A stretch of DNA of 64,000 nt from the NCBI GenBank assembly GCA_021464415.1, contig CM038465.1, positions 21,607,839-21,671,838 of the forward strand, written 5' to 3'. Origin of the DNA: Lonicera japonica. Lineage: Eukaryota; Streptophyta; Magnoliopsida; Dipsacales; Caprifoliaceae. Below the pieces are notes generated by a model. It saw nothing but the letters and a program-made list of their open reading frames with translations, did no database searches and was not told where the DNA came from. Within the stretch, counting starts at the first letter, position 1. Every line of letters starts with the position of its first letter. Shown in pieces: positions 35,403-55,092 of this stretch. The position numbers and the translations under genes were made by a program.

Positions 35403-35407
35403 TTTAG
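35403..35407. repeat. Target site duplication TTTAG (left)
   Basis: Direct repeat with 55093-55097 flanking the 19.7-kb element. Confidence 0.93.
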
Positions 35408-35516
35408 TGTAGACACCCCGATCCGTGATCCCCGCAAGAACCCTAAACGACCTACGAGACTACTGTTTTTGGAGCCCGGGACCCACCCGAGCATCCGAAA
35501 CTACCCCGGGGGGGTT

Positions 35517-35856
35517 TGTTGCGCGACAAACCTTTTTTATGAAGGATTGTCGCACGACATATCACATTGTCGCGCAACAATCATTGGAATGTCGCGCGAC
35601 AATCCCACTATGTCGCGCGACAATCTCTCTCTGCACCCGACCAACCACTTTCTGACACATCACAGTGTCAGGACCCATCACTTCAGCCGCTTGTCGCGCG
35701 ACAATCACACTATGTCGCGCGACAATCCCTCTCTGCACCCGACCAACCACTTTCTGACACATCACAGTGTCAGGACCCATCACTTCAGCCGATTGTCGCG
35801 CGACAAACAGATATGTCGCGCGACACTTGCCTTTTTTGGGGAAATGTCGCGCGACA
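35517..35856 (+). promoter_or_regulatory. TGTCGCGCGACA palindrome array, 5' LTR (10 copies)
   Basis: Perfect copies at 35590, 35611, 35692, 35713, 35794, 35814 and 35845 (first base); one-base variants at 35517 (TGTTGCGCGACA), 35548 (TGTCGCACGACA) and 35568 (TGTCGCGCAACA). Most are followed by AATC or AAAC. The last copy ends 15 bp before the TATA box. A ~102-bp unit (35611-35712, 35713-35813) containing CTGACAC-N6-GTGTCAG is tandemly duplicated. Probably the LTR enhancer. Confidence 0.85.
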
Positions 35857-35871
35857 ATCTTCCCTGAGCAG

Positions 35872-35879
35872 TATAAATA
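35872..35879 (+). promoter_or_regulatory. LTR TATA box
   Basis: TATAAATA within GCAGTATAAATAGGCC, just after the palindrome array; drives the sense genomic transcript. Confidence 0.8.
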
Positions 35880-37085
35880 GGCCAACACCCCCAAGGGTTA
35901 AGAGAGGACTGGAATCTAGAAATTCTGAGTTTTATTCTGATTTTATCAAGCATTTTATATTATCATCTTATCTCTGAAGAATTATCGAATCTATTCCCGA
36001 CACTCGACGTGTCCCGTCTCTGGAGGCGAATTCTCGGAAATATCTGAAGAAGGAGAAGATTATTATCGCCGGAGATCTCTCTGCCGTATTATATTCTCTT
36101 TCTCATTATTATTCTCGTCGGGAAGGTAAATAAAGTTTCTTCTCGTAATTAAATAAGATATTCGCATGTTGGGCTAGATTCCTAACGCGCTCGAAAAATA
36201 GGTCTACCTGTGTACTTGTTTTATTTCTGTTGTCTTGTCCACGTTTTATTTGAATAAACTTATTGCCAAGTTATAAATAGCCTACCGTTTTCAAAACAAA
36301 AGACCCTGATAAAACCATTTGCAAAACCAGAAGAGTAAGTATGTTATCGTCCGGATAAAAATTCTATTTTCAAAACCCAGACTGATACGACTTATCTAGG
36401 AATTAGAATCAACATATCCTGTCTTCTCTATAGACTGTGACGTGATTGATAACTCTCCCCAAAGAGTTCTAGTTCCATATTAAATTAGTCCCGACATAGA
36501 TCCGAACTTTTACAAAAGTAAACACAACACGAGAAAACCGTCATTATCTGGGGAAATAATACGGGATACTCTTTCAAAATAAAAGGTTTTGTCACTTGTA
36601 TTTACACCTTTTAAATAAAAACATCGGATCTCGGAACACAAAGGTTTTCATCACTTTCCCGTTTTCCCCCAGAAATTAGGGTTTTCATTTGAAGAGTAGT
36701 AGACTGTCAGTAAAAGCATCCAAGTTTTTCAACATAGAATAAACATATAAAGACCACTAGAGACCGAAAGGGCGGAATGGGTGCTTAACACCTTCCCAAA
36801 CCGTAATATAGTTCCCGAACCCTATAGAATCCTGGTTTCGCAGACAAATGTGTAAAGAAAGGCTTATCTGTAGCCTTTCCCCTTACACAACCCTTTTTGT
36901 CCGTTTTCTCGTAAAACGTACTGGCGACTCTGAACGAATCCCTTTGCATCTAGAATAGACGTAGGGACACATGATAAGAATCATCAAACAACTCCAAGCA
37001 AATGGAGCAACGGAATTCGTTCCGACGCTTCAGACGCCCAACGAGCGGGGACGAGACCCGGGGGTCGCATTTGCGGATTCTCACA

Positions 37086-37106
37086 GTGGCGACTCTGCTG
37101 GGGACC
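37086..37106 (+). other. Tat-type primer binding site
   Basis: GTGGCGACTCTGCTGGGGAC begins directly after the LTR. This PBS type is typical of Tat/Ogre elements, where it has been assigned to tRNA-Arg; I cannot verify the tRNA here. Confidence 0.8.
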
Positions 37107-37837
37107 ACTAGAGAACTAGACTCTTATATGTGGACTTTCGTTTATCTATTTGAACACTTGCTTTTCCTGCTTTCCCTACTTATGTTAATTGATTGAGAAG
37201 AAACATTTTTTTAGAAAAAGGGAATTTTTCAAAAATACGTAATCAAGATAATGATATTTGTAAACCCAACCTTTTTCACACGCACTATCACAAATCATGC
37301 ATTGGTTCTACGAGTGTGAATTTACCCCAAACCCTCGGAAGTATTATAAGTGAGTAGGGAGTTGGCTTGCTTGGGCCAACATAAACCGAAAGCATTTACT
37401 TCCGCTCTCCTTGGCCAAGTACGCCCCCGAGGTATATCGAGTGACGAGAACACTCACGTACCCGGGAAGTATATCAAAAGATTCTTGCACGTACCCGCCC
37501 CTGGGGTATATCGCAAGGTCTTGCCAAAAAGGAGGGAGCCTGAAGCCTTAACCGTTCGTACACCTGCGCTGCATATAAGATCGAGTCGAGTTAAAACACT
37601 TGTCAAACAGCCGTAGAGGATGTACCACTTTACGGCTTACTTTTCGACACCCTTTTTAAAATTCGAGGCTCTTCTCGGCAATTTTTAGTGGTTCTTTTGG
37701 CAAAAATCGAGTCGCATCACAGTCTTCCTTCATCTTCGCCACGTGATTTTCGTCTACAGTCGTGAAGCAACAACAGACTGGAAGGTTGGGCCGGCCGTGA
37801 TCACACCGGAAGACTAGTAAGACCAAGCACACCTGAA
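37107..37837 (+). other. Tat-type leader
   Basis: Untranslated stretch between PBS and gag ATG. It has three diverged GTACCCGCCC/GGTATATCG-type repeats (37420-37520). No convincing upstream ORF. Confidence 0.5.
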
Positions 37838-40800
37838 ATGGCCGATGAACGCGAGAATCGAGAGACAGATCAGAGCCGAGCCGAGGCATCATCAGCTCAG
37901 CCAACCCTAGCCGAAATGCACCGTTTACTCATGACCGTCAGCAGGGATCTGGCAAATCTCACGAACGAGCAACAGGGTACCCGAATCCGAATAGAAGAAT
38001 TGTCAGCCGAACGAACTGCACCACCGGGGTTTGATCGACTACCACCGAATCGTGATCCGAACCAAGGACAGTCTTCACAGGTACTCCCCCCAGTTCAAGG
38101 AACCGATCCACCCCAAACGGGCCCTATCGTAGCTGGTCCTGTTCAAACCGACCCCAACAATCAGAACCAATGGGCCCCAGATTCAGGCCCCACTTACCAA
38201 CAGCAAGAGCCACCCATAGTCTGGCCGCAACCCCAAGTACAACCCGGCTTTGACCCCCACTATCAACCATGGCCACAAGTTCCTGCAAGACCCATTCCAC
38301 CACCGGCCCCAGCAGCCCTCCCTAATGAATACCCAGACATCAACCGACTTCGGGCAGTATATGCAGAATCGGTAATAGCGCGAGAACAGCCCGACGAGGT
38401 GTCAAGAGAGAGTGAGGAAATGAAGAAGCTGAAAGAGCAGATGAGAGTCCTACAGAAGGGGGTGTCCCTAATAAAAGGAGCAGATGAGATCACAGACATG
38501 AATGCCTTCTCCCTATACCCAGAAGCAAGATTACCCCAGGGATTCAAACTCCCTTCCATCACCAAATTCACTGGAACCACGCCCCCTAAAACCCATCTAC
38601 AGTCCTACATCAGATCCATGCAAGTGTCCGGTTGTGGAGAGCCGGAATTAGCACAGGCCTTTCACATGACTCTCACGGGGGCCGCCCTGGGATGGTTTTT
38701 TGGTCTAGAAAGGCATCACACGCAGACTTGGGGAGATATCGTCAAGGAATTTATGACCAAATACGGGTCCAACGAAGATTTGGAAATTACCCGTAAACAC
38801 CTGGAAATGGCCAAACAGGGCGAGAAAGAAAGCTTCAGCGACTTTGTCACTCGCTGGAGGGAGATGGCCTCCCAAATGTCCAAACGACCCGATGAAGAAG
38901 AACAGCTGGAAATCATTCAGAAGAACTTCACTCCAGCCGTACTGAGTTGCATGGGAAAGCATGTATTCCCACACTTCAGGGCCCTGTTGAGTATGGGGTC
39001 ACAAGTAGAGGAAGAATTGGCCAAGAAAGCTGAAACCGATACCAAGAAAGCCGCTTACATCGGGAAAAAGACGGCCACTACCGCCGTGAACCAAATAAGC
39101 TCATACCCCTATCAACAGAACCCTTTTCAACAACCACAACAACCACCTCTGATGAGTTGGCCCGCACAAGGAGGCCCTTCAAACACCGAGGACAAGAAAA
39201 GGAGAAACTTCTGCACCCTCCCCACTACACTGGTAAAAAGTCTGGAGCTGCTTCGCAAGGCCGGACTAATCACCCCACTCAACCCGCGCCCTCCACCAAA
39301 TCCTATTCCAAGTACCTGGAAAATGAATGAGAATTGTGCGTATCATCAAGCTGCAGGGCATGACACGGAGCGTTGTTTGGCCCTTCGTCATCGTATTCAA
39401 GACCTCATTGAAGCCGGAACCATCCCCGCACCCGGCGGACCCAATGTTGTCAACAATCCACTCCCTAACCATGCTCCACCTGCAGGAATCAATGCCTTAA
39501 CCACTGATGAAGAAGGCTTTGACCCCGTAAGGTTCATACGAGATGACCCAGTCTACAGGGCACCCGTTGTACTGCCAGCAAAAACCCAAGTTACCCCGGG
39601 CCTCAATCCCATAATTGACCAATGGATGGCCAAAATGAACTTCCTACCCGGGCAGGGTTTAGGAAAGACGAATCAGGGGATCTCACAGCCGCTTGCAATC
39701 AAAACCAATCCCGGAAAATCTGGGATAGGATGGACCCAGAATAAGAAGAAACAGTCATGGAAATCCCAAAACAGGGAGACAATCTGTATGACAGAAACCT
39801 CCCCCGGGACTTTTAGTTGGTCGACAGAGCCGGAATCGTCAGAAGCTTCAGAGGAATCAGACCCGGCATCCCTTTGGATTCAACAGATCACCCGTTCAGG
39901 AAGGGTATATCAACCACCACCGACGGATGCTGAGAAAACACTACCACCTAAGGAAATGGGAGAAGATAGAGTGCTTGAGCAGTTGAAGAAGACCCAGGCA
40001 CACATCACCATTTGGGGCCTCTTGGTTGCCTCCAAACCCCACATGACCGCTTTCATCAAACTTCTGGACGAGGCCGTGATATCACCAAACTCCACACCCG
40101 AACAACTGCCAAACATGATCGGGTCGCTTACAATCCAAAGAAGTCTGTCATTTTCAGATGAGGATCTGTCTCCATTGGGGAGGAAACACAGCCTGGCTCT
40201 CCATATCACTGTCCGAACCCGAGGAAAGATTTTGCCACAAGTCCTTATCGACAATGGGTCAACCATAAACGTCTGCCCCTTGAAGACCGCTAGATGCCTG
40301 GGTATCTTGGATTCAGAGCTTTCTCCATCCGCCGTGACTGTCAGGGCCTACGACAATACCAGAAGGGCCGTTCTAGGTTCTCTGAAGCTCGATCTCATGG
40401 TTGGTCCCGAAAACTTTCCAGCCGACTTCCAAATCATAGATATTCCCTCCAGTTTTAACCTCCTGCTGGGAAGAGCGTGGCTACACGACATAGGAGCACT
40501 CCCCTCCTCCTTGCACCAAAAGATCAAGATACCGTTTGAAGGGAACATAATTACCATCCAAGGAGATCCTGAAAGGACCTTGGCGGATATGGAGTTACCA
40601 GTTTTAGGAATCGGGAGCCAGAGCATACAGTTGGGAGGCTTTTCTTACGAGCCTCAAGTGCAAACTCTTAGCACCCAGACAATCAGGTATCTTCCCCCTG
40701 ACAATATCCACGGTCTCAGCACCAAGATTACAAATATGTTGAGAATGATGAAATACTTGCCTGGAGCCGGTCTGGGAATAGGACAACCAGGACTACTTCA

Positions 40801-43501
40801 AGCATTGGAACCAGTAGCAAGGTACGAGAGGGAAGGTTTGGGGTACCAACACACTGAGGAAGACGATCAGCAAAAAGGGGGTCGGGGGCATCAATATCCG
40901 AGTTTCAGCTCCTTGAACGGGTTTTTTGTCAAAGAAGGAGAGGACTTTCCCTTTTGCGGTTTTCAGGAACCTTGGAGAAACAGCGACGGAGAGAGCCTAC
41001 CAGGATGGGAAATCTTCTATGAAGAGGACATATATGTCAAAGAAAGCATCGAACACAGTTTCTCCACCAAACTAACAATCGGGTTGAAAGAAGAAAATGA
41101 AGACAAGACAGATAAGGAAGAAGAAATGATCGGAGATCTCTTCGACATCATGGCACTAGGGGATGACGAGCCAAGGGATGACCCCGTACACCTGATATAC
41201 GCTGATCCAGACTACCAAAGAAAAGGGGAAATGAGTGAAATTGTAAGGGTGAGAGGTGAGAGTGAAAGAAAGGCTAGGAAAGAGCCACTCCTAGATTTAC
41301 TTTTTAAACTTATACCTGTAAACACTCTTATCAATGAAGAAAACTCTGTTTTACGTTATCCTGTTATTTGTAATCCTGTAATAGCTTATAAGGAGTTAGA
41401 AAGACTAAACGAACACCCTGAACGGGAGGAACAGCGTATACAGAGCGAGGAAGGAGACACTCTTGAAATTAACCTCGGGACAGAAGAGGAAAGAAAGGAG
41501 GTCCGCATCGGGGCAAGTCTGAGTGAAGCAGAAAAAGAGGAATTCACACAAATTCTGAAAGAGTACGTGGATGTCTTCGCCTGGTCTTATGCTGATATGC
41601 CAGGATTGAACAGTCAGATAGTCATGCACGAGATACATACCAAGCCGGAGTTCAGACCTGTCAAGCAAAAGTTAAGGAAACTTACGCCAGAATGGTCCCT
41701 GAAAGTAAAGGAAGAAGTAATGAAACAACTGAGTGTAGGGTTTTTACGAGTGATCGATTACCCTTCATGGTTAGCCAACATTGTGCCCGTTCCAAAGGCA
41801 AATGGGAAGGTCCGCATGTGTGTGGATTACCGGGATCTTAACAAAGCTTGTCCGAAAGACGATTTTCCATTGCCCAACATTGATTTGATAATAGATAACA
41901 CTGCAAATCACGCCCTAAAGTCATTTGTGGATGGTTTTGCCGGGTATAACCAGATCAAAATGCACCCGGATCACCAGGAGAAAACTGCATTCATCACACC
42001 ATGGGGAACATACTGCTACACCGTTATGCCATTTGGGCTGAAGAACGCTGGGGCAACCTATCAAAGAGCGGCCACCGCTATCTTCCACGATATGATCCAC
42101 AAAGAAGTAGAGGTGTACGTGGACGACATGATAATCAAATCAAAGGAGAGGGAAGGTCACATACCAGCCCTGCGAACCTTCTTCGACCGGCTCCGCCAGT
42201 ACCAGATGAGACTCAATCCGCAGAAATGTGTGTTCGGGGTGACCAAGGGAAAACTCCTAGGTTATGTTGTTAGTAAGGGAGGAATCGAGGTAGACCCTGC
42301 CAAGGTTCAAGCTATCCAAGAAATGCCTAAACCTCGTACCGAGAAAGAAGTCCGAGGATTTTTGGGTAATCTGCAGTACATCAGTAGGTTCATCTCTCAG
42401 CTCACTCAGACTTGCGAGCCCATCTTCAAGCTCCTGAGGAAATCTTCACCAGGAGAGTGGGACGGTCAGTGCCAAGAAGCTTTTGATAGAATCAAAGAAT
42501 ATCTCTCCAACCCCCCAGTTTTAGCCCCACCACAAATCGGACTACCCTTAATTTTATACCTAACCGTCACTGATTCAGCCGCGGGAGCAATGCTAGCCCA
42601 GCACCTGATTGATACCCGGAAAGAGCAGGCCATCTACTTCCTCAGCAAAAAACTGTCCCCATTTGAGATAAACTACACACCATTGGAGAAATCATGTACC
42701 GCTCTCGTCTGGGTAACGCAGAAACTACGACACTACATGCTAGTCTTCTCAGTCATCTTGACATCCCGGATTGATCCGTTGAAATACCTCTTCGAGAAAC
42801 CGGCTCTCTCGAACCGAATGGCAAAATGGCTGTTTTTACTCTTCGAATTCGACATCACCTACATGACCCAGAAGGCGGTCAAAGGCAAGATCATAGCTGA
42901 TTACCTGGCCCACAATCCAGTATTGGGGGACGTGCTGGAAGAAGCCGAGTTCCCAGATGAAACCATCATGAATGTCGAGGTTGATGAAGACTGGAAGTTG
43001 TACTTTGACGGGGCCGCCAATCGGAATGGAAACGGGATAGGTATCCTGTTAGTCTCTCCAGACCAAACTCACTCCCCGGTATCATATCGACTGGACTTCT
43101 TCTGCACCAACAACATGGCTGAATATGAAGCCTGCATACTCGGGTTAGAGATCGCTCTTCAAAGGGGTATAAGGAGGATACAGGTATACGGAGATTCAGC
43201 ACTAGTGGTTCACCAGGTTCTGAAAGAATGGAAGATCAGAGATGAGAAATTAGTCCCTTACCTCGCCCGACTGGAGGATGTCGCAGGAAAGTTCAAACAT
43301 ACGGAGTTTTACTATCTCCCCAGGTCTCAGAACAGTTTTGCTGACGCACTGGCAACCCTGGCATCTATGATCGATATCCCGGAAGGAATGGAAGAAATAA
43401 CTCTTACGGTGCAGAAGAAGGCAGAACCAGCACACTGCACGGCTTTGGAGGTAGAGAATGAAGGGGAAGGGGATTCAACCGCTTGGTTTTACGATATCTG
43501 A
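37838..43501 (+). CDS. Gag-protease-RT-RNase H-aRNase H polyprotein (to TGA)
   Basis: The ATG at 37838 opens 1,887 uninterrupted codons. Rough residues: proline/glutamine-rich N-terminus 1-240; capsid (Retrotrans_gag: SYIRSMQVSG...FSDFVTRWREMASQMS) 245-400; CAYHQAAGHDTERC knuckle-like motif near 500; G-patch-like glycine motifs FLPGQGLGK (about 605) and YLPGAGLGIGQPG (about 972); protease VLIDNGSTINV (about 805; DNG in place of DSG); RT 1290-1500 with VDYRDLNKACPKDDFPLP and VYVDDMIIK (1426); RNase H (1570-1690); archaeal-type RNase H LYFDGAANRNGNGIGILL with YEACILGLEIAL and GDSALVV (1720-1850), diagnostic of Tat elements. The TGA at 43499-43501 separates it from integrase, which continues in the same frame. 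All domains look intact. Confidence 0.93.
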   Translation: MADERENRETDQSRAEASSAQPTLAEMHRLLMTVSRDLANLTNEQQGTRIRIEELSAERTAPPGFDRLPPNRDPNQGQSSQVLPPVQGTDPPQTGPIVAGPVQTDPNNQNQWAPDSGPTYQQQEPPIVWPQPQVQPGFDPHYQPWPQVPARPIPPPAPAALPNEYPDINRLRAVYAESVIAREQPDEVSRESEEMKKLKEQMRVLQKGVSLIKGADEITDMNAFSLYPEARLPQGFKLPSITKFTGTTPPKTHLQSYIRSMQVSGCGEPELAQAFHMTLTGAALGWFFGLERHHTQTWGDIVKEFMTKYGSNEDLEITRKHLEMAKQGEKESFSDFVTRWREMASQMSKRPDEEEQLEIIQKNFTPAVLSCMGKHVFPHFRALLSMGSQVEEELAKKAETDTKKAAYIGKKTATTAVNQISSYPYQQNPFQQPQQPPLMSWPAQGGPSNTEDKKRRNFCTLPTTLVKSLELLRKAGLITPLNPRPPPNPIPSTWKMNENCAYHQAAGHDTERCLALRHRIQDLIEAGTIPAPGGPNVVNNPLPNHAPPAGINALTTDEEGFDPVRFIRDDPVYRAPVVLPAKTQVTPGLNPIIDQWMAKMNFLPGQGLGKTNQGISQPLAIKTNPGKSGIGWTQNKKKQSWKSQNRETICMTETSPGTFSWSTEPESSEASEESDPASLWIQQITRSGRVYQPPPTDAEKTLPPKEMGEDRVLEQLKKTQAHITIWGLLVASKPHMTAFIKLLDEAVISPNSTPEQLPNMIGSLTIQRSLSFSDEDLSPLGRKHSLALHITVRTRGKILPQVLIDNGSTINVCPLKTARCLGILDSELSPSAVTVRAYDNTRRAVLGSLKLDLMVGPENFPADFQIIDIPSSFNLLLGRAWLHDIGALPSSLHQKIKIPFEGNIITIQGDPERTLADMELPVLGIGSQSIQLGGFSYEPQVQTLSTQTIRYLPPDNIHGLSTKITNMLRMMKYLPGAGLGIGQPGLLQALEPVARYEREGLGYQHTEEDDQQKGGRGHQYPSFSSLNGFFVKEGEDFPFCGFQEPWRNSDGESLPGWEIFYEEDIYVKESIEHSFSTKLTIGLKEENEDKTDKEEEMIGDLFDIMALGDDEPRDDPVHLIYADPDYQRKGEMSEIVRVRGESERKARKEPLLDLLFKLIPVNTLINEENSVLRYPVICNPVIAYKELERLNEHPEREEQRIQSEEGDTLEINLGTEEERKEVRIGASLSEAEKEEFTQILKEYVDVFAWSYADMPGLNSQIVMHEIHTKPEFRPVKQKLRKLTPEWSLKVKEEVMKQLSVGFLRVIDYPSWLANIVPVPKANGKVRMCVDYRDLNKACPKDDFPLPNIDLIIDNTANHALKSFVDGFAGYNQIKMHPDHQEKTAFITPWGTYCYTVMPFGLKNAGATYQRAATAIFHDMIHKEVEVYVDDMIIKSKEREGHIPALRTFFDRLRQYQMRLNPQKCVFGVTKGKLLGYVVSKGGIEVDPAKVQAIQEMPKPRTEKEVRGFLGNLQYISRFISQLTQTCEPIFKLLRKSSPGEWDGQCQEAFDRIKEYLSNPPVLAPPQIGLPLILYLTVTDSAAGAMLAQHLIDTRKEQAIYFLSKKLSPFEINYTPLEKSCTALVWVTQKLRHYMLVFSVILTSRIDPLKYLFEKPALSNRMAKWLFLLFEFDITYMTQKAVKGKIIADYLAHNPVLGDVLEEAEFPDETIMNVEVDEDWKLYFDGAANRNGNGIGILLVSPDQTHSPVSYRLDFFCTNNMAEYEACILGLEIALQRGIRRIQVYGDSALVVHQVLKEWKIRDEKLVPYLARLEDVAGKFKHTEFYYLPRSQNSFADALATLASMIDIPEGMEEITLTVQKKAEPAHCTALEVENEGEGDSTAWFYDI

Positions 43502-44728: not shown

Positions 44729-44852
44729 GTGTGGCATATAACAAGAACTACGTAAACCTGAGCCCCAACTCAAAACTTTTTGTTCTTTATAAAAATCAAA
44801 AAGGGGAACGTAGGCAACCTGAGAAGTGACTTCAGGCCCGGTTTAAACTTTG

Positions 44853-44867
44853 TAAATAAATTTATTT
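44853..44867. terminator. Palindromic bidirectional poly(A) signal candidate
   Basis: AAATAAATTTATTT gives AATAAA on both strands, 125 bp after the sense pol stop and about 90 bp after the antisense ORF stop (44952). It is well placed to end both convergent transcripts. Confidence 0.45.
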
Positions 44868-44951
44868 CCCACAAGCAGTCCCTCATATATTATTAAAAGG
44901 TGGTTCAGAACACCGAAGGTTACAAAAGAGACATAACAAATACGAAAGAAA

Positions 44952-46208
44952 CTAATCCCTAGGGGTTGGCCACACTGGGTCCTCAATAGCCAAATCGATC
45001 CGAGCTTCGTCCAAGATCTGATATGCAAAGACAATATTATCATCAGTAGCCTCCGTATCCATGAACCGGAACCACTCCATTTGAAAGGGGTCGTCGATCA
45101 GTTCTCCTTCCAGAGATTGCCAGCAAGAGCGGATGATATCAGCCCGGAGGGGCCGGGTAATACCAAAACGGGCATAATTGAACTGACAAGTCAGTCGAGC
45201 ACGCCACATCCTCTCTACCGATAAAGAAACATGTGGGGTCACAAATTTAGACTCAGAAGAGAAGTTGTTCAGACCAAGGGGAACCTCCTGAGGAATGTTA
45301 AACTGTCGAAGAAGACGCCCAGGGAGATAAAAGGAAGTAAACCAGAGCCCGCGGAGCCGAACGTAGTTCTGACCCCCAGTACTAAGTACCATCTTCCTCA
45401 GCTTCCACCAAGGAATGTTCCACCGGATAGCCCGAAAGTTCTCCGAAAACCACACCGTCCAATCAGAGGAAGACATGGTCAAAACACCAAAGAGAGGCCG
45501 ATGGAAGAAATGAGTCGGATTGTCGAGCCGAACTCCGCTGAAACCCACCGATCGAAAGCGCTCTAGCAGCCACATGTATAGCAGACGCGGGCTCCCCCGA
45601 AAGAAGGGCAAGGCCCCCCGTTGAACATCATCAAGACCATTCAGGGTCTCTGCAAGAATGATCGGCACTATAGACTCCCCATTCCTAGCCTGGTAAATCA
45701 GACTCAAGATAGTCGGATCAACACGGGAAGAACCCGTCACCAGCAGCATATCAGAAACCAGGCAAATCAGGGCCGCTGCAGTACGCCCCACGCCGTAAGA
45801 GGCCCTATCTTCATAACGATGAAAGAACCTCACCATTTTGTGGAGGTCAAGGAGCCCGTCGACAATGAAACCATCGCAGGCCGCTTGGGGAATGGCTAAC
45901 AGAGCAATTAGCATGTCGCGGGGACCGATTCCTTCTATAGGAACTGCCATCGGGAGACGAACGTCAGAACGTAACAGCCAGGAGAACTCCTCATAGGTCG
46001 GGCAGAGCTCATCTAGTCCAAAATAGAAGAGATGGTCCGCAGGACTCCAGAAATACAAGGCACCTAACAGAAAGGAGAAATCTACAGGACGATGGCACCA
46101 GCCCGCCAAAGGACTGAATGCACCAAAGTTCAAACCATTTTCAGAAGATATCAGAGCATCTCGAGCTTTAACATAAGAAAAATTAGAGTTGGTACGGTAG
46201 GAAGACAT
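44952..46208 (-). CDS. Antisense gene A: DUF7745-like protein, 418 aa
   Basis: Single intact frame, ATG 46208, stop 44952, opposite to gag-pol. It reads DHLFYFGLDELCPTYEEFSW, AAALICLVSDMLLVTGSS, then IVPIILAETLNGLD and RGSPRLLYMWLLERF. The order E-x-x-PTxEEY/F, a helical block, PxILAETxxxL and AxLLYxWxxxxF is that of DUF7745 proteins, often found in plant transposons and distantly like the plant mobile domain. Function unknown; no catalytic motif is evident. Promoter: TATAAATA at 46254-46247, only about 39 bp before the ATG, preceded by three TGTCGCGCGACA-type palindromes. It lies tail-to-tail with pol and downstream of antisense gene B. Family by pattern recognition only. Confidence 0.8.
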   Translation of the reverse strand: MSSYRTNSNFSYVKARDALISSENGLNFGAFSPLAGWCHRPVDFSFLLGALYFWSPADHLFYFGLDELCPTYEEFSWLLRSDVRLPMAVPIEGIGPRDMLIALLAIPQAACDGFIVDGLLDLHKMVRFFHRYEDRASYGVGRTAAALICLVSDMLLVTGSSRVDPTILSLIYQARNGESIVPIILAETLNGLDDVQRGALPFFRGSPRLLYMWLLERFRSVGFSGVRLDNPTHFFHRPLFGVLTMSSSDWTVWFSENFRAIRWNIPWWKLRKMVLSTGGQNYVRLRGLWFTSFYLPGRLLRQFNIPQEVPLGLNNFSSESKFVTPHVSLSVERMWRARLTCQFNYARFGITRPLRADIIRSCWQSLEGELIDDPFQMEWFRFMDTEATDDNIVFAYQILDEARIDLAIEDPVWPTPRD

Positions 46209-46246
46209 TTTGGAGAGGTGTGGGGATGAAGGAAGGAAGATGGGTG

Positions 46247-46254
46247 TATTTATA
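46247..46254 (-). promoter_or_regulatory. TATA box of antisense gene A
   Basis: Minus-strand TATAAATA, identical in core to the LTR TATA box; implies a very short 5' UTR of roughly 15 bases. Confidence 0.65.
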
Positions 46255-46280
46255 GCAAAAAAGAGGGTCCTGTACCTGTT

Positions 46281-46356
46281 TGTCGCGCAACAAACCCATT
46301 TTCAGGGGGAAGTGTCGCGCGACAAACCCATGACCAGGAGGGATTGTCGCGCGACA
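46281..46356 (-). promoter_or_regulatory. Palindrome cluster at antisense gene A promoter (3 copies)
   Basis: TGTCGCGCAACA at 46281-46292 (one mismatch), TGTCGCGCGACA at 46313-46324 and 46345-46356, with regular 32-bp spacing, the nearest ending 26 bp from the TATA box. Each is followed on the plus strand by AACCCAT or similar. Confidence 0.8.
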
Positions 46357-46670
46357 AACCCATCTGGGGGTCACCCTACTTTCTTCCTTATACATAATGG
46401 TCATCTTTGCCAAAAGAATCACTTCTGGATACTTTTCTGTTCTCACTTTGTTCTTTTTTGCAGGAAACATAAGTATCACTACACTACAAGGTATGACTTT
46501 TGAATTACCGACTCTTATATATATATGTATATATCTTGCACAGACAGAGAATAAAAGTATAATCAAACACAGATAAAGATATTTTATAAAACCAATAAAA
46601 GAACAGTTTTTAAATATCTGTCTAAACATGTATCTGTCAAAACTAACACTAAAATGCAGAAAAGGGAAAA

Positions 46671-47039
46671 CTAATCTACTCGGGCGCGTTTTGACACGCT
46701 CCCACTATCTCCCGAGCCCTCCTCGGGGGTAAGATCAACAACTGGGACGCTGGGAACAGAAGGAACTGCCGCCTGAGAAGGCCCCGTGGACTGGACCGGT
46801 GCCGTAGGACGGATCACCGACGATCGGGAACGCCTGGAAGTCCGACTACTGCTCCTCCGAGAATCCGTCCGGGCATGGGAGGAAGTCAGGGGGTCGTCCG
46901 GCCGTAAAGAGATGTCGATAGCCCTCTGATAGTCACGCATATAGGCTGGAGGGTCTCGACCGACATACTGGAGCAGGTTCCAGCTGTAAAGGTACTGGGC
47001 GTACCAAGCCCGAAGATCTGCCACCCGTACGCTCACTCT
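46671..47039 (-). CDS. PMD gene exon 5
   Basis: 122 codons plus stop, RVSVRVADLRAWYAQYLYSW to the SKRARVD end, after TTTTTACAG|. It contains repeated RRSSSRTSRRSRSS, possibly nuclear targeting. Confidence 0.8.
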   Translation of the reverse strand, partial: RVSVRVADLRAWYAQYLYSWNLLQYVGRDPPAYMRDYQRAIDISLRPDDPLTSSHARTDSRRSSSRTSRRSRSSVIRPTAPVQSTGPSQAAVPSVPSVPVVDLTPEEGSGDSGSVSKRARVD

Positions 47040-50000
47040 CTGTAAAAAGGACATGAAAGAGAATCAGCACAGTCAAAATAGATGGAGATAGACATAAGGG
47101 TATCGAGAAAAGGAAAAAAGTAAAAGTACCTCGTCATCAGGGCGACCACCCAAAAAGTCAAAAGTATCCTCAGGAAGAGGATACTCCGGGACGGAATATC
47201 GACGTAATCCAGCGCCAACATAAGGAATATCCCTGGGGAGTGGGGGTAGATCTACCCACGGAATAGACGACCCCGCCGGAACACCAGCGGAAGTAGACCC
47301 GCCCTCCTCACGGATCGGGAACAAGGGAGGCCGGGATGAAGAACCCCCGAAACCTGGAGATCGGGTAGGAGGACCCATGACAGTCGCCGGAAGAGGAGTC
47401 AACGTGGCGTAAGTACGGACCCCCGGAGGATCCACTATGGCCGACGCCCTCAGAGGAGGTACCCCACTAGAAGGAGAAGCCACCGCAGCTGGGGGAGTCC
47501 GCCCGAACTGCTCGTAATCTGCCCCGAGGTCCGCGGGCTCCCAGGACCTCTCAGACAATCCCGCTCTCCCCACAGCAGCCTCAGCAGCAGCAAAAAGGAC
47601 ACCCGGAGACACAGAAGGGCCGGTCGGAAACTCGAAACCCTCAGTACGCTGCTCCCTCACAGGTGTCGCCTGAGGTGACGGCTCCGGAACGGCTGTCGCA
47701 TCACCTCCCTCGCCCTCTGGCCGACCACCGCCCTCAGCCGCAGCAGGAACATCCCTCTCTCCCTCAGGATCCTCATCCTCGGAATCCGGAATGTTGTCCC
47801 TCTGATCGGGGACAGGTGGCAAATGACCCGGAACCACCCTAGCTAAATGGGTCTGTCCCCGTATGTAATGAGGATCACCCCCCAATGCCCGATACCTCTC
47901 ATAGAAGACCCGTCCCCGAGTCCCCTTCGGCTCCCTCATCAGGTAACGGGCAGCAAAAATAGCATAGTCTCCATCCTCGACGAACGTCTGGAAGCCGAGT
48001 CCGTCAACCAAAGCCTGCACCGTCACCGGGTCGATCTCGCCCGTCCGCCTCATCAGAACAGGAGGGAACAATGGAACACGAGGCCACTGGGATGGCGTGT
48101 GCTGACGAATGACCCTCTCACCCAAGTAGAAGAGAAGGCCGTACTCATCCCGGATAAGTCGCCTGGTCCTCGAGGCGGTCAGAGCACGACCATACCCATG
48201 ATGAGGACCCAGATCACCCCAAGGGGCCCACTCAACCTGAAAAGAGAACAAGTTTTTTATTCTCAGTAAATTATATATCTTATCTAACTATTGAAGAACA
48301 AGAAAACTAAAAATATTTTACCTGCTCCTCCCGCAGATCATGAACAGCAGCAGCTCCGGTCTTCCGAGTTCGGTATACATAGGGAGCCCTGTAGTTCCCC
48401 GCAGTGAATCGGCGGAGAAAAGGGAACTGGTCCTCGTTCTCGACGAGGAGATCCACCTGGGCGCGACCCAGGCGGGTGTAAGCTACAAACCAGCTCTGAA
48501 AAGGAAAAATAGAGAACATCAGCAATAATCAAACAGGTAATACGTGAAGGACTAAAAAGCGAAAAGACCAAGAGTATGTACCTCCCACAGCAGAGAAAAG
48601 CCCTTGAGATTCAGGGCTAAATGGCGAGAGACCTGGTCCATGGCATCATAAAGGACTGCAAGAATGAAGCCTCCCCAGTCATAGTCAAACAGGAGGCTGA
48701 AGTCCCGAAGATAGGGCAACCACCAAAGATGAGCCGTGTCCCCACCACGAGCCTCGAATAAATCATGGAGTGTCAATAGAAGAAAGACGCGGGCATACTG
48801 GCGCGCCTCCTGACGGGTCATAGGAACCCCTGAAGCAGCTAGTCGAGCCCTCTCTGTGGCTAACCGCGTAACCAAGACGCCCCGAGGAATCGTGTCACCG
48901 GAACTCCGTCGCTCCGGAAACCATCCTAATGAACTAACGATGCCCTCGGCTGTCAGACGCAAGGGGACGTCGATCTGAATGGGGACCCCCCCCTGAAGGG
49001 ATCCCGGTCAAAGCAAACAAATCGAGGGGGGTCATCGTCATCTCCCCCCAGCTCCAGTGAAAGGTATGGGTGGTGTCCCACCAGTGGCAAGCCAGAGCCG
49101 ATACTAAAACTGTCGCCCTAGATACTCGCTCTGGGAGGGCGTCGAAGAGGGAGCCGAAAGGAGTCGCAAAGATCAACTCCTGGACAGGGGCCGGTGCCCG
49201 TCGCCACTCCGAGGATATAGTGTTGGGGGAACCCCAACCTCGGCCAACCCATTGCGAACAAAAGAACGAGTATGGGGTTATAAGGGTAAATTATGTAATT
49301 TCCAAAACCTGAGGGTACTTTGGTGTAATTATGAGAGTTATGGGGTTATAAGGGTAAATTATGTAATTTCCAAAACCTGAGGGTACTTTGGTGCAATTAT
49401 GAGAGTTATAGGGGTTATAAGGGTAAATTATGTAATTTCCAAAACCTGAGGGTACTTTGGTGCAATTATGAGAGTTATAGGGGTTATAAGGGTAAATTAT
49501 GTAATTTCCAAAACCTGAGGGTACTTTGGTGCAATTATGAGAGTTATAGGGGTTATAAGGGTAAATTATGTAATTTCCAAAACCTGAGGGTACTTTGGTG
49601 CAATTATGAGAGTTATAGGGGTTATAAGGGTAAATTATGTAATTTCCAAAACCTGAGGGTACTTTGGTGTAATTATGAGAGTTATGGGGTTATAAGGGTA
49701 AATTATGTAATTTCCAAAACCTGAGGGTACTTTGGTGCAATTATGAGAGTTATGGGGTTATAAGGGTAAATTATGTAATTTTCAAAACCTGAGGGTACTT
49801 TGGTGTAATTATGAGAGTTATAGGGGTTATAAGGGTAAATTATGTAATTTCCAAAACCTGAGGGTACTTTGGTGTAATTATGAGAGTTATGGGGTTATAA
49901 GGGTAAATTATGTAATTTCCAAAACCTGAGGGTACTTTGGTGTAATTATGAGAGTTATGGGGTTATAAGGGTAAATTATGTAATTTCCAAAACCTGAGGG

Positions 50001-51477
50001 TACTTTGGTGTAATTATGAGAGTTATGGGGTTATAAGGGTAAATTATGTAATTTCCAAAACCTGAGGGTACTTTGGTGTAATTATGAGAGTTATAGGGGT
50101 TATAAGGGTAAATTATGTAATTTCCAAAACCTGAGGGTACTTTGGTGTAATTATGAGAGTTATAGGGGTTATAAGGGTAAATTATGTAATTTCCAAAACC
50201 TGAGGGTACTTTGGTGCAATTATGAGAGTTATAGGGGTTATAAGGGTAAATTATGTAATTTCCAAAACCTGAGGGTACTTTGGTGCAATTATGAGAGTTA
50301 TAGGGGTTATAAGGGTAAATTATGTAATTTCCAAAACCTGAGGGTACTTTGGTGCAATTATGAGAGTTATAGGGGTTATAAGGGTAAATTATGTAATTTC
50401 CAAAACCTGAGGGTACTTTGGTGTAATTATGAGAGTTATGGGGTTATAAGGGTAAATTATGTAATTTTCAAAACCTGAGGGTACTTTGGTGCAATTATGA
50501 GAGTTATGGGGTTATAAGGGTAAATTATGTAATTTCAAAACCTGAGGGTACTTTGGTGTAATTATGAGAGTTATAGGGGTTATAAGGGTAAATTATGTAA
50601 TTTCCAAAACCTGAGGGTACTTTGGTGTAATTATGAGAGTTATGGGGTTATAAGGGTAAATTATGTAATTTCCAAAACCTGAGGGTACTTTGGTGTAATT
50701 ATGAGAATTATAGGGGTTATAAGGGTAAATTATGTAATTTCCAAAACCTGAGGGTACTTTGGTGTAATTATGAGAGTTATAGGGGTTATAAGGGTAAATT
50801 ATGTAATTTCCAAAACCTGAGGGTACTTTGGTGTAATTATGAGAGTTATAGGGTTATAAGGGTAAATTATGTAATTTCCAAAAAACCTGAGGGTACTTTG
50901 GTGTAATTATGAGAGTTATAGGGTTATAAGGGTAAAATATGTAATTTCCAAAACCTGAGGGTACTTTGGTGTAATTATGAGAGTTATAGGGGTTATAAGG
51001 GTAAATTATGTAATTTTCAAAACCTGAGGGTACTTTGGTGTAATTATGAGAGTTATAGAGTTATGGGGGTACATTATGTAATTTTCTAAACTAAGAGGTA
51101 TCACAGGTAAAAGTATGTGTTCGCTAAAAATCGGGCGTTATTCCTAGTCAGACATGCATACTAACATTATCTAAAACGAATACAGGAAACGACAAGAAGC
51201 AGAACAGATAAATGCACGAAAGAAGACATACCAGAGATCGACGACGAATCTCGTGAGAAACGGGCTCCATCAAAAGCCACGGGACGTCCGGGACCGGAGC
51301 AGCTCGGATAGCATCCCGATAGACCACCGCCCGACCGCGGTCTATCCCATCCTCATCATACCAGTCCAAGTCCGCCCAGTCGTCGTGATGAGGGCTGCAG
51401 CGAAGAACGCCCTGAGCGTCAGTAAAGGTGACCTCCTCCTGGTCACCCTCCAATCGGTCGAGATGAGCAGGGTCCAT
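46671..51477 (-). CDS. Antisense gene B: plant mobile domain (PMD) protein, 5 exons
   Basis: Proposed exons: 51477-51232, 49206-48582, 48495-48322, 48236-47130, 47039-46671. All junctions are GT-AG and phase 0 (donors GTATGT, GTACAT, GTAAAA, GTACTT; three acceptors are TTTTCAG or TTTACAG). Predicted about 839 aa. Exon 2 carries the PMD signature (LVSALACHWWDTTHTFHWSW, GEMTMTPLDLFALTGIP; later ARVFLLLTLHDLFEAR and HLWWLPYLRDF). Exon 4 has TPSQWPRVPLFP and a long acidic/proline-rich region. Exon 5 ends in an R/S-rich tail with SKRARVD (NLS-like). PMD proteins of plants (MAIN/MAIL1 family) act in transposon silencing and gene expression, and PMD genes are frequent in transposons. Defect: an eight-C run in exon 2 shifts the frame. 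The exon 2 acceptor (AG at 49208-49207) is the least certain. Confidence 0.8.
47130..48236 (-). CDS. PMD gene exon 4
   Basis: 369 codons from VEWAPWGDLGPHHGYG to GGRPDDE; the PMD end, then a low-complexity region rich in P, E, G and A. Bounded by TTTTCAG| and GAG|GTACTT. Confidence 0.8.
48322..48495 (-). CDS. PMD gene exon 3
   Basis: 58 codons, SWFVAYTRLGRAQ to VHDLREEQ, bounded by TTTTTCAG| and CAG|GTAAAA. Confidence 0.8.
48582..49206 (-). CDS. PMD gene exon 2 with one-base frameshift
   Basis: Carries the first half of the PMD. The run of eight C at 48986-48993 puts the frame out by one; both flanking frames are open and homologous to one protein, so one base is extra. It ends GAG|GTACAT. 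Confidence 0.75.
49274..51090. repeat. Tandem array, ~69-bp unit, 26 copies plus a degenerate one
   Basis: Unit runs GTTATAAGGGTAAATTATG, TAATTTCCAAAACCTGAGGG, TACTTTGGTGYAATTATGAG, AGTTATRGG. Copies differ mainly at Y (C/T), TTCC/TTTC and GGG/GGGG near the unit junction. The degenerate last copy is near 51060-51090. The array lies wholly in intron 1 (51231-49207) of the antisense PMD gene. Hypervariable tandem repeats in the 3' region are a known trait of Tat/Ogre elements and a source of satellites. Confidence 0.95.
51232..51477 (-). CDS. PMD gene exon 1
   Basis: 82 codons from MDPAHLDRLEGDQEEV to HEIRRRSL; acidic. It ends at CTG|GTATGT. ATG chosen because it follows a TATA box (51632-51625) and a pyrimidine-rich (minus strand) leader. 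Confidence 0.75.
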
Positions 51478-51624
51478 CGATATAGGTAGAATATATGTGA
51501 AAAAGTCGGAAAAGTCAAAAACACGGCAGAGCTTCCGCGCTTGGGAGAGAAGAAAAGAGAGAAAAAAAGAGCTAGAGAGAGAAAGAGAAAGGAGAGAATG
51601 AGGTGGAATGAGCTCAGCAAGGGG

Positions 51625-51632
51625 TTTATATA
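51625..51632 (-). promoter_or_regulatory. TATA box of antisense gene B
   Basis: Minus-strand TATATAAA, about 148 bp before the ATG at 51477, downstream of three palindromes. Confidence 0.65.
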
Positions 51633-51643
51633 GTGGGTCAGTT

Positions 51644-51708
51644 TGTCGCGCGACAAATGGCCACATTGTCGCGCGACAAAGAGCCAGACACCGAAGTGTC
51701 GCGCGACA
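51644..51708 (-). promoter_or_regulatory. Palindrome cluster at antisense gene B promoter (3 copies)
   Basis: Perfect TGTCGCGCGACA at 51644-51655, 51667-51678 and 51697-51708; the nearest is 11 bp from the TATA box. Confidence 0.85.
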
Positions 51709-52075
51709 ATCCCCCCTCCTCCCTGATTTTTTTGACCTTTGTCTCATTTTATCTTCTGCAGAGGCACTTCGGAGAAGCAGTTTTCAGAAAATTGCTAAAA
51801 ACCGCACACCCATGATAAAAAGTTCAAAGAGAAAACTTCCAAATCATCTCTCCGAAAAAAATGCGAAAACAGAATGCCGCGATTAAAAGTAGTCTCTGAT
51901 CTCACAGAAGGACCGAGACCATCAAATAATAAAAAGCAGAATAGCGAGATAAGACGGGAATAGAAAAAATTGAAAGAGTAGAAAAGAGGAGAAACCCGCA
52001 TGAGCGCCCAAAGCGAGCGAGAGAAACAGACATGTAGAGTGAGAGGGAGAGCCACACCGAAAGTGATAGCTAGGC

Positions 52076-52076
<1 letters not shown>

Positions 52077-52114
<38 letters not shown>
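52077..52114 (+). repeat. Poly(A) tract of 38
   Basis: Uninterrupted A run inside the 3' region of the Tat-type element, between the PMD promoter and the minisatellites. Confidence 0.95.
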
Positions 52115-52115
<1 letters not shown>

Positions 52116-52535
52116 GGCTTTAGGGTGAGTAAGGCTCCTGATCACGACAAAGGGATGAAAAGACTCCTGGTCAAAAACAGAGAGGGCCAGGAAAAGTCTT
52201 TTCCAAAAGAGGGAGAAATAAGGGCATCGAAAAAACAGAAAACGATGTGGGCCCGCCAAAAGAGAAACTAAGAAAAGAATAAAGATCAGAGATTGAACTT
52301 TCAAACAAATTTTCTTTTCAGCACGATACAGAAAAGATGATTTGGAAAACCTCGGACCATCACTCTGCGGAGAGCAAAGAAATCCGAAAACTGCCTTCGG
52401 AGTGAAACATCTTCACTCGAGGAAAACATGAGAGTAAAGTTCAGAAAGATACAGGGAAACGGACATCCCGAATAGACCCTGAGAAGTTCTTTTTACCTTC
52501 GCAAAATCTACTCTCTCTCACTCTAGCAGTCTAAG
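52115..52535. other. Tat-type 3' region, non-coding
   Basis: Purine-rich, no gene seen on either strand. Confidence 0.5.
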
Positions 52536-52539
52536 AGAG

Positions 52540-52700
52540 GCAATTCACCAACACAAACCCTCTCCGGAGGCAATTCACAAACACAAGCCCTCTCCGGAGG
52601 CATTCACCAACACAAGCCCTCTCCGGAGGCAAATTCACAAACACAAGCCCTCTCCGGAGGCAATACACAAAATCACAAGCCCTCTCCAGAGGCAAAAGTT
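52540..52700 (+). repeat. ~30-bp minisatellite (CCTCTCCGGAGG)
   Basis: Five copies of a unit CAATTCACMAACACAARCCC-TCTCCGGAGG with small indels. The same CCTCTCCGGAGGC core reappears twice at 53235-53282. Confidence 0.85.
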
Positions 52701-52739
52701 ACTCATGAAAGTCCTCCCAGAGGCATTTTTTCCTTCTTC

Positions 52740-53190
52740 TTTCAGATCTAGAAGCCCTCCCAGAGAGGCACAACGGTAGTCCTCCCGCCTGAGGCGAAGC
52801 CCTCCCAGAGAGGCACAACGGTAGTCCTCCCGCCTGAGGCGAAGCCCTCCCAGAGAGGCACAACGGTAGTCCTCCCGCCTGAGGCGAAGCCCTCCCAGAG
52901 AGGCACAACGGTAGTCCTCCCGCCTGAGGCGAAGCCCTCCCAGAGAGGCACAACGGTAGTCCTCCCACCTGAGGCGAAGCCCTCCCAGAGAGGCACAAAC
53001 GGTAGTCCTCCCACCTGAGGCGAAGCCCTCCCAGAGAGGCACAACGGTAGTCCTCCCATCTGAGGCGCAATGGTAGTCCTCCCACCTGAGGCGCAAAAAA
53101 GATCAATGGTAGTCCTCCCATCTGAGGCGCAACGGTAGTCCTCCCACCTGAGGCGCAAAAAAGATCAATGGTAGTCCTCCCATCTGAGGC
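52740..53190 (+). repeat. ~43-bp minisatellite
   Basis: About seven copies of AAGCCCTCCCAGAGAGGCAC-AACGGTAGTCCTCCCGCCTG-AGGCG, then four or more shortened copies (GGTAGTCCTCCCATCTGAGG). It is open in all three antisense frames because the unit lacks stops, which is not evidence of a gene. Confidence 0.9.
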
Positions 53191-53508
53191 AAGTGGAGCA
53201 AGTCAAAGCCCTCGAAAGAGGCAACGAGGTAACAAAAGCCCTCTCCGGAGGCAAAACCAAACACGAAGCCCTCTCCGGAGGCACTCACAAGCACTTTTTG
53301 CATAAACACTCCGATAGAGTTCATGCGGGAGCCATGGATCATGGTCTCTTCCAGTCGCCTCAATTCCTTGCAAGCAAGGAGCTTGAGTCGAGAGGGTCTG
53401 TAGACACCCCGATCCGTGATCCCCGCAAGAACCCTAAACGACCTACGAGACTACTGTTTTTGGAGCCCGGGACCCACCCGAGCATCCGAAACTACCTCGG
53501 GGGGGGTT

Positions 53509-53870
53509 TGTTGCGCGACAAACCTTTTTTATGAAGGATTGTCGCACGACATATCACATTGTCGCGCGACAATCATTGGAATGTCGCGCGACAATCCCAC
53601 TATGTCGCGCGACAATCTCTCTCTGCACCCGACCAACCACTTTCTGACACATCACAGTGTCAGGACCCATCACTTCAGCCGCTTGTCGCGCGACAATCAC
53701 ACTATGTCGCGCGACAATCACACTATGTCGCGCGACAATCCCTCTCTGCATCCGACCAACCACTTTCTGACACATCACAGTGTCAGGACCCATCACTTCA
53801 GCCGATTGTCGCGCGACAAACAGATATGTCGCGCGACACTTGCCTTTTTTGGGGAAATGTCGCGCGACAA
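53509..53870 (+). promoter_or_regulatory. Palindrome array, 3' LTR (11 copies)
   Basis: Same as in the 5' LTR plus one extra unit (about 53693-53734); the copy equivalent to 35568 is perfect here. TATA box at 53885-53892. Confidence 0.85.
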
Positions 53871-53884
53871 TCTTCCCCGAGCAG

Positions 53885-53892
53885 TATAAATA
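53885..53892 (+). promoter_or_regulatory. 3' LTR TATA box
   Basis: TATAAATA; could start readout transcription into the LINE remnant to the right. Confidence 0.7.
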
Positions 53893-55092
53893 GGCCAACA
53901 CCCCCAAGGGTTAAGAGAGGACTGGAATCTAGAAATTTTGAGTTTTATTCTAATTTTATCAAGCATTTTATATTATCATCTTATCTCTGAAGAATTATCG
54001 AATCTATTCCCGACACTCGACGTGTCCCGTCTCTGGAGGCGAATTCTCGGAAATATCTGAAGAAGGAGAAGATTATTATCGCCGGAGATCTCTCTGCCGT
54101 ATTATATTCTCTTTCTCATTATTATTCTCGTCGGGAAGGTAAATAAAGTTTCTTCTCGTAATTAAATAAGATATTCGCATGTTAGATTCCTAACGCGCTC
54201 GAAAAATAGGTCTATCTGTGTACTTGTTTTATTTCTGTTGTCTTGTCCACGTTTTATTTGAATAAACTTATTGCCAAGTTATAAATAGTCTACCGTTTTC
54301 AAAACAAAAGACCCTGATAAAACCATTTGCAAAACCAGAAGAGTAAGTATGTTATCGTCCGGATAAAATTCTGTTTTCAAAACCCAGACTGATACGACTT
54401 ATCTAGGAATTAGAATCAACATATCCTGTCTTCTCTATAGACTGCGACGTGATTGATAACTCTCCCCAAAGAGTTCTAGTTCCATATTAAATTAGTCCCG
54501 ACATAGATCCGAACTTTTACAAAAGTAAACACAACACGAGAAAACCGTCATTATCTGAGGAAATAATACGGGATACTCTTTCAAAATAAAAGGTTTTGTC
54601 ACTTGTATTTACACCTTTTAAATAAAAACATCGGATCTCGGAACACAAAGGTTTTCATCACTTTCCCGTTTTCCCCCAGAAATTAGGGTTTTCATTTGAA
54701 GAGTAGTAGACTGTCAGTAAAAGCATCCAAGTTTTTCAACATAGAATAAACATATAAAGACCACTAGAGACCGAAAGGGCGGAATGGGTGCTTAACACCT
54801 TCCCAAACCGTAATATAGTTCCCGAACCCTATAGAATCCTGGTTTCGCAGACAAATGTGTAAAGAAAGGCTTATCTGTAGCCTTTCCCCTTACACAACCC
54901 TTTTTGTCCGTTTTCTCGTAAAACGTACTGGCGACTCTGAACGAATCCCTTTGCATCTAGAATAGACGTAGGGACACATGATAAGAATCATCAAACAACT
55001 CCAAGCAAATGGAGCAACGGAATTCGTTCCGACGCTTCAGACGCCCAACGAGCGGGGACGAGACCCGGGGGTCGCATTTGCGGATTCTCACA

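Follow-up and report, generated by a model that had tools for sequence, protein, structure and literature searches.

One palindrome at the LTR promoter and both antisense promoters of a Tat-type retrotransposon in Lonicera japonica

The retrotransposon considered here, assigned to the Tat clade of Ty3/gypsy elements, lies in a 64,000-nt stretch of the Lonicera japonica genome (assembly GCA_021464415.1, contig CM038465.1, positions 21,607,839 to 21,671,838 of the forward strand; hereafter, the window) and carries a 12-bp palindrome, TGTCGCGCGACA (motif 1), before all three of its promoters, i.e., the long terminal repeat (LTR) promoter of gag-pol and the promoters of two antisense genes, A and B. 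A sister family in the same genome carries another palindrome of the CCAACCGTACGGTTGG type (motif 2) at the same three promoter types. The sequence comparisons strongly support one cis-regulatory module for the three promoters; this proposal of the initial annotation is upheld as far as it was tested, and the concerted replacement of the motif in the sister family adds a stronger argument for it. The palindromes are probably the operators of one sequence-specific, probably dimeric regulator acting on all three promoters, and the gene for this regulator probably lies within the element itself. Coordinates are positions in the window, and sites are numbered as in the window copy.

Palindromes at the three promoters

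The window contains 21 exact and 6 one-mismatch sites of TGTCGCGCGACA, all of which lie within 35517–53869 and fall in promoter regions: 10 in the 5′ LTR, 11 in the 3′ LTR, three before gene A and three before gene B, exactly as first annotated. Not one exact copy occurs in 100 shuffles of the window. At up to two mismatches the scan returns 28 sites against 0.39 expected, 27 of them in the same interval; the other, a two-mismatch site at 4773, is the nearest approach to the motif outside the element, where, as had been claimed, no site with one mismatch or fewer is present. AT runs aside, the window has no second 12-mer palindrome that occurs more than once. The sites, their TATA boxes and the two antisense genes are as follows.

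35517–35856, plus strand: palindrome array in the U3 region of the 5′ LTR, 10 sites (7 exact, 3 with one mismatch), spacings 31, 20, 22, 21, 81, 21, 81, 20 and 31
35872–35879, plus strand: TATA box TATAAATA of the LTR promoter, 15 bp past the last palindrome
53509–53869, plus strand: palindrome array in the U3 region of the 3′ LTR, 11 sites (9 exact, 2 with one mismatch)
46281–46356, no strand assigned: three palindromes before gene A, one with one mismatch, spacings 32 and 32
46247–46254, minus strand: TATA box TATAAATA of gene A, in minus-strand reading
44952–46208, minus strand: gene A, 418 aa, a DUF7745/PMD-superfamily protein judged by its relatives
51644–51708, no strand assigned: three exact palindromes before gene B, spacings 23 and 30
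51625–51632, minus strand: TATA box TATATAAA of gene B, in minus-strand reading
46671–51489, minus strand: gene B, a split gene for a plant mobile domain (PMD; PF10536) protein

The gap between the palindromes and the TATA box measures 15 bp in both LTRs, 26 bp before gene A and 11 bp before gene B, which agrees with the 11–26 bp given earlier. Each motif-1 palindrome contains three CpGs. The LTR arrays hold tandem duplications of ~21 and ~102 bp, and the 3′ array exceeds the 5′ array by one 21-bp unit. The initial annotation had regarded the flanks as unrelated and simple duplication as insufficient to explain the sites; this holds for gene B, whose site flanks match those of other sites at 8–10 of 20 positions at best (95th percentile of chance, 10), but not fully for gene A, where 11–13 of 20 flank positions agree with those of LTR site 1, so that some sites may descend from short duplications. 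The helical phasing of the sites (R = 0.72 at 10.4 bp for 14 hand-chosen linkers; Rayleigh ~7e-4) is only suggestive, because the linkers lack independence and two of the lengths, 34 and 81 bp, are a poor fit. LTR site 1 (35517–35528) itself reads TTTGTTGCGCGACAAACC in the window, and at its position copies L005, L006, L007, L010–L013 and L015 have TTTGTTGGCCAA(A)CAAACC or a near form, a different palindrome-like core.

Across the 886 Mb and 967 contigs of the genome, exact TGTCGCGCGACA occurs 29,561 times, as opposed to a single copy of the reversed control word. The first 50 of these positions (the first 4.6 Mb of contig C1), covered by 12 stretches, all lie in LTRs or gene A/B promoters of the family of the window element, family 1, and none of the 50 lies outside it. 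The copies concerned are ~76–93% identical to the window LTR in the main alignments and have four to nine LTR sites at up to two mismatches, and the four that include an internal part each have two sites before gene A and three before gene B. Three sites precede gene A in every one of the 30 best-match gene A loci (L017–L046, one being the window copy), and two motif-1 sites precede it in each of 11 further loci hand-picked from the matches of a distant query, P0005, which returned mostly family-1 copies and of whose four best matches one, at a contig start, was omitted. In total, motif 1 at up to one mismatch is present in 64 of 64 family-1 pieces, some of which share one element: 14 LTRs, 45 gene A loci and 5 gene B promoters, with no exception to the expectation that family copies keep the motif before their antisense genes. 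Among the 45 gene A entries, 29 are whole 4.25-kb loci without sites beyond the three of the promoter. Motif 2 at up to three mismatches is found in none of the 64.

The palindromes are also better conserved than their surroundings in LTR comparisons for which motif positions were defined on a single LTR and then scored on its partner. Identity within motif columns reaches 96.4% (6790 of 7045 cases), compared with 85.8% (43508 of 50727) for other U3 columns and 86.3% (160094 of 185483) for the rest of the LTR, and CpGs are kept in 1550 of 1735 cases (89.3%) within the motif, in 2250 of 2717 (82.8%) in other U3 and in 5076 of 7136 (71.1%) in the rest of the LTR. Among 176 directional LTR pairs, which are not independent, 168 favour the motif over other U3, while for CpGs 153 favour the motif over the rest of the LTR and 126 favour it over other U3.

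A second palindrome in a sister family

The sister family, family 2, is abundant, with 101 matches scored of 4114 candidates; its gene A homologues are nearest to P0002 (68–72% identical), and its reverse transcriptase–RNase H (RT-RH) segment is identical to that of family 1 at 419 of 544 positions (77%). Five of its gene A promoters contain two to four CCAACCGTACGGTTGG-type units, 19–20 bp apart, before the TATA box, and no motif-1 site at up to three mismatches was found in these five. Genome-wide, the motif-2 core CCGYRCGGTTGG yields 5006 + 5063 matches versus 26 + 35 for the control. A family-2 element on C1 contains four motif-2 clusters, located in one LTR (589130–589338), before gene B (592179–592213), before gene A (596089–596158) and in the other LTR (606741–606949); two more four-cluster elements lie on C1 at 307–324 kb and 8.57–8.59 Mb, and each of the three has a gene A match beside its A cluster. 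Further clusters on C1, outside this three-element count, are listed at 56, 250, 262, 296–304, 505 and 578 kb. The sequences of ten family-2 clusters confirm the palindromes, which are spaced 19–20, 22, 46–47 and 54 bp apart; a TATA box follows in most cases, and in a few short pieces it is truncated or changed. Motif 2 is also present in 12 of 13 additional gene A upstream pieces, chosen by hand among 118 DUF7745 matches so as to vary in frame length. Overall, 26 of 27 family-2 pieces (5 LTR, 19 gene A and 3 gene B, some again sharing one element) have motif 2, the exception being L083, and none of the 27 has motif 1.

On these sequences, the promoter word has changed in concert at three separate promoter types between the two families. 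A merely drifting motif would not change alike at the LTR, gene A and gene B promoters, whereas a shared reader whose specificity has changed demands such a concerted switch; it is what a dedicated, family-specific DNA-binding regulator predicts, and it suggests that this regulator is most likely an antisense protein, comparable to VANC or TnpA. Both motifs share a CG-YR-CG core and differ in their outer bases. The central dinucleotide is CG in 116, CA in 17, TG in 11 and another in 4 of 148 family-1 sites (up to two mismatches), and it is TA in 48, CA in 6 and TG in 5 of 59 family-2 sites, which were preselected for a CGNNCG frame. A shared core with different outer bases would be expected of diverged homologous binders.

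Two further observations concern the family-2 LTRs. In L053, L055, L056, L059 and L060, motif-1 half-sites of the form TGTCGCACG stand among the motif-2 units; they may survive from an array in a shared ancestor or may serve a mixed dimer. At ~577.5–578.5 kb on C1 (L005:9000–10000), a family-2-like LTR stretch with two motif-2 palindromes and several half units (GGGCGTGCGGCT) adjoins a family-1 element.

The antisense genes and their element

Genes A and B probably belong to one superfamily, that of PMD proteins, gene A only weakly so. Its own Pfam scores are below the cut-off (PMD, 17 bits; DUF7745, 12.6 bits); the link runs through its homologues P0002 (44% identical), P0004 and P0005 (both 32%), all three of which score above the DUF7745 cut-off, with P0004 above the PMD cut-off as well, and through gene B, in which one piece matches PF10536 at 37.9 bits, over the cut-off, and the next at 22.2 bits, below it. 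No mention of DUF7745 was found in the literature searched. Gene A is stop-free in 95 of its 100 best-scoring genome copies. Its best protein match, from Lonicera macranthoides, is 94% identical, and the residues before the start of that gene model read LSRDT and CRAT at a distance of 32 nucleotides, as expected from the translation of two palindromes; read from the protein only, they are consistent with conservation of the palindromes in this species. The pieces of gene B are as follows.

51489–51148, 49290–48934, 49007–48552, 48528–48307, 48287–47073 and 47063–46671, minus strand: putative coding pieces of gene B, exon ends inferred by eye

Between the families, compared through one element of each, the antisense proteins have diverged further than the RT-RH segment. 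Gene A is identical at 180 of 413 positions (43.6%) and the PMD core of gene B at 69 of 143 (48%), with 38–51% in its other pieces; the family-2 element aligns to the first five gene B pieces, and the last is without a match. A protein search with the family-2 PMD piece returned 8 matches, none of them named. Within family 1, RT-RH identities are 88 and 94%, those of gene A 86–95% and those of the gene B pieces 75–93%, which places gene A on a par with RT-RH and the gene B pieces equal to it or somewhat lower. The stronger divergence of the antisense proteins fits co-evolution of a reader and its word.

The remaining features of the element are listed below.

35408–37085, plus strand: 5′ LTR, starting TGTAGACACC and ending CTCACA (self-BLAST, ends read directly)
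37838–43501, plus strand: gag-pol open reading frame (ORF), 1887 aa, with gag, RT, RNase H and a second RNase H (RVT_3)
43502–44728, plus strand: integrase part of pol (PF00665), its frame open from 43502 behind an in-frame stop in the window copy
49268–51091, no strand assigned: minisatellite (unit ~69 bp, from self-BLAST offsets) in what is presumably the large intron of gene B, without palindromes
53399–55092, plus strand: 3′ LTR (self-BLAST, ends read directly)

The two LTRs are 97.7% identical by self-BLAST, a 5-bp duplication, TTTAG, stands on both flanks of the element (35403–35407 and 55093–55097), and the stretch directly after the 5′ LTR is GTGGCGACTCTGCTGGGGACC. The element is classed as a Tat-clade (Ogre-like) Ty3/gypsy LTR retrotransposon by its domain order rather than by a tree. 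In pol, Pfam places RT_RNaseH at residues ~1541–1671 and RVT_3 at residues 1730–1841, followed by the integrase frame; an additional RNase H thus stands between RNase H and integrase, which is described as the mark of the angiosperm Tat lineages Ogre and Retand (PMC6317226). The region between pol and the 3′ LTR spans ~8.7 kb and includes a PMD-type extra ORF (PF10536 in gene B), and 57% of Ogre elements are reported to have PMD in extra ORFs (PMC6317226). Transposase_28, of the TRP28 type, is absent among Pfam matches up to E = 10 in the antisense genes. The polyprotein also has G-patch matches (PF01585) in two stretches, the best at residues 597–631, and two more tandem repeat arrays, with units of ~30 and ~45 bp and without palindromes, occupy 52537–53190 directly before the 3′ LTR.

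Explanations and comparison with known systems

In the mechanism that we propose, a regulator encoded by gene A (DUF7745/PMD-type) or gene B (PMD) would bind the palindromes at the LTR promoter of gag-pol and at the two antisense promoters, and would thereby control its own gene together with the whole element in a feedback loop. It might act as an activator, as an anti-silencing factor by which the CpG-dense sites stay open, or as both, and the sister families would have changed regulator and operator together. Protein binding, the element-encoded origin of the binder and activation or demethylation are the parts that we infer. In its wider form, to which we give about even chances, the proposal is that Tat-clade elements carry their own regulon, in which antisense PMD-superfamily proteins read family-specific CG-YR-CG palindromes at the LTRs and at their own promoters, regulator and operator co-evolve, and sister families are insulated from one another.

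Several observations weigh against this proposal. An AlphaFold2 model of gene A built from 7 sequences has a mean pLDDT of 38.6 and no confident fold. The faster divergence of the A and B proteins may merely reflect a tighter constraint on pol, and within families all ratios are driven towards 1 by neutral decay once an element has inserted. Gaps are more frequent in motif columns (17.3%) than in other U3 columns (9.8%) because whole units come and go, which points to a fast turnover in the number of sites. Family-2 LTRs keep TGTCGC half-sites in 5 of 5 pieces (three mismatches to motif 1, in one case two), so that the switch of the word is not absolute at the level of half-sites. Lastly, an old element, L083/L089 (C8:35.20–35.21 Mb), which may represent a third family, has neither motif before gene A; it has other, decayed units there (ACCGTACTGTATAGG and similar) and TGCCGYRCGGCA-like units ~19–20 bp apart before its gene B (PMD), with no clear word common to the two. 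Of two candidate third patterns taken from it, one is not enriched genome-wide (8 + 8 matches versus 19 + 16 for the control), and the other, with 61 matches versus 4, is weakly enriched and, among the matches listed, scattered.

The sites could instead be bound by host transcription factors, each family having recruited a different one and spread its sites over all promoters for the same host signal, which we consider possible but rather unlikely. Repeated U3 motifs of the plant retrotransposons Tnt1, Tto1 and ONSEN are reportedly bound by host factors; the motif-1 half TGTCG resembles the core of auxin response factor (ARF) sites, and E2F sites of the TTTCGCGCGAAA type, as commonly quoted, are one base per half away from motif 1. 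Neither motif, however, fits the strict consensus strings as commonly given for ARF (TGTCGG), E2F (TTTSSCGC) or CAMTA (VCGCGB), in a comparison limited to these strings without a motif library, and the ARF resemblance raised in the initial annotation does not stand closer comparison: TGTCGG/CCGACA is absent from both motifs, the half-sites abut (ARFs prefer half-sites 7–8 bp apart), and TGTCGC is missing from the family-2 gene A and B promoters. A host factor should moreover have host targets, whereas none of the 50 listed exact sites, from the first 4.6 Mb of one contig, lies outside the family, and two families would require two different host factors, each at three promoters.

An origin without any trans factor, in which short CpG-rich repeats were spread by slippage, template switching or gene conversion and homogenised per family, appears improbable. 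It would account for the tandem duplications in the LTR arrays, the one-unit difference between the LTRs and the likeness of the gene A flanks to LTR site 1, and VANC targets likewise grow as tandem repeats (PMC5735166). Yet the gene B flanks are at chance level, the sites exceed other U3 columns in identity, and all 27 window sites are in promoters, while the 69-bp minisatellite and the repeats before the 3′ LTR have none; homogenisation explains the spread of the sites but not their placement. We find it hardly credible that the sites are targets of host silencing, i.e., nucleation signals for methylation or RNA-directed DNA methylation, rather than operators of the element. The three CpGs of each motif-1 palindrome and the action of the host PMD proteins MAIN and MAIL1 in silencing (PMC5418596) would suit such a role, but an element should lose silencing targets; here they are preserved and multiplied, and the sister family has another CpG palindrome at the same three promoters.

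An element-encoded regulator finds its closest parallel in VANC of the Arabidopsis VANDAL transposons, the precedent offered initially and an apt one in architecture. VANC21 is described as binding YAGTATTAY arrays of its own family in vivo and in vitro and VANC6 as acting on sequences with other motifs, and the arrays evolve by tandem repetition (PMC5735166). VANDAL21 and VANDAL6 share with the Lonicera families non-coding arrays of short motifs that are dense only in their own family and changed between related families, a motif copy number that varies by tandem repeats, and an accessory protein that diverges (PMC5735166, PMC10398659). Likewise, the palindrome clusters in non-coding regions of its family and is hardly found outside it (in the window, at the 50 listed positions and in all 64 pieces), and it differs between two related families that keep one architecture. 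However, VANDALs are DNA transposons for which VANC21 binding and methylation loss were demonstrated, whereas the present system consists of LTR retrotransposons with CpG palindromes and PMD-superfamily antisense genes, known from their sequences. A VANDAL transposon with a vanC gene is ruled out for the window by gag-pol, the LTRs and the PMD/DUF7745 accessory genes.

TnpA of the maize CACTA DNA transposon Spm/En recognises a repeated 12-bp site, and its sites are subterminal, in contrast to those in the LTRs and before two antisense genes here. TnpA is cited as an element-encoded activator of its own element that acts with demethylation (PMC10398659). Antisense ORFs are described in Grande (gene23), RIRE2 and Retand (TRP28); gene23 is driven by a promoter of its own, its product is nuclear, and a regulatory role is proposed, for the Retand proteins by Vicient (PMC7264820, PMC11963269). 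These ORFs are of TRP28 or other types, unlike the PMD/DUF7745 genes here, and the available text of the same papers mentions no cis motif common to LTR and antisense promoters. The Tat/Ogre lineage shares the second RNase H and PMD in extra ORFs, and palindromic promoter arrays are not described in the accessible part of its survey (PMC6317226). Host PMD proteins are also linked to a promoter motif, as MAIN/MAIL1 are tied to the DOWN motif, for which direct recognition or an additional unknown factor is proposed (PMC7156037, PMC9899485); the form in MORC1, CATGCAGTTT, differs in not being palindromic and in belonging to host genes, and no exact match to this string occurs anywhere in the window. 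For PMDs that MULE transposons have captured, an anti-silencing role is suggested as a speculation by Ikeda et al. (PMC5418596). A promoter palindrome common to LTR and antisense genes was not found in the literature, in a coverage mostly without subscription journals, and the 14 papers with text matches of the 12-mer and related forms included none, judged by titles, on a plant retrotransposon motif.

According to the available text of PMC7264820, PMC11963269 and PMC5418596, no function is known for Tat-type antisense genes or for the plant mobile domain. If the proposed regulator exists, the PMD proteins carried by retrotransposons would gain a function, none having been reported in the literature seen, and an ancestral DNA-binding role would be suggested for the host silencing factors MAIN and MAIL1, a biochemical ancestry that can be tested. 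Should an antisense protein read the word of its own family, plant LTR retrotransposons would have family-specific self-regulation of the kind shown for VANDAL and Spm, and the two families, with two protein sets and two DNA words in one genome, would constitute a ready swap system.

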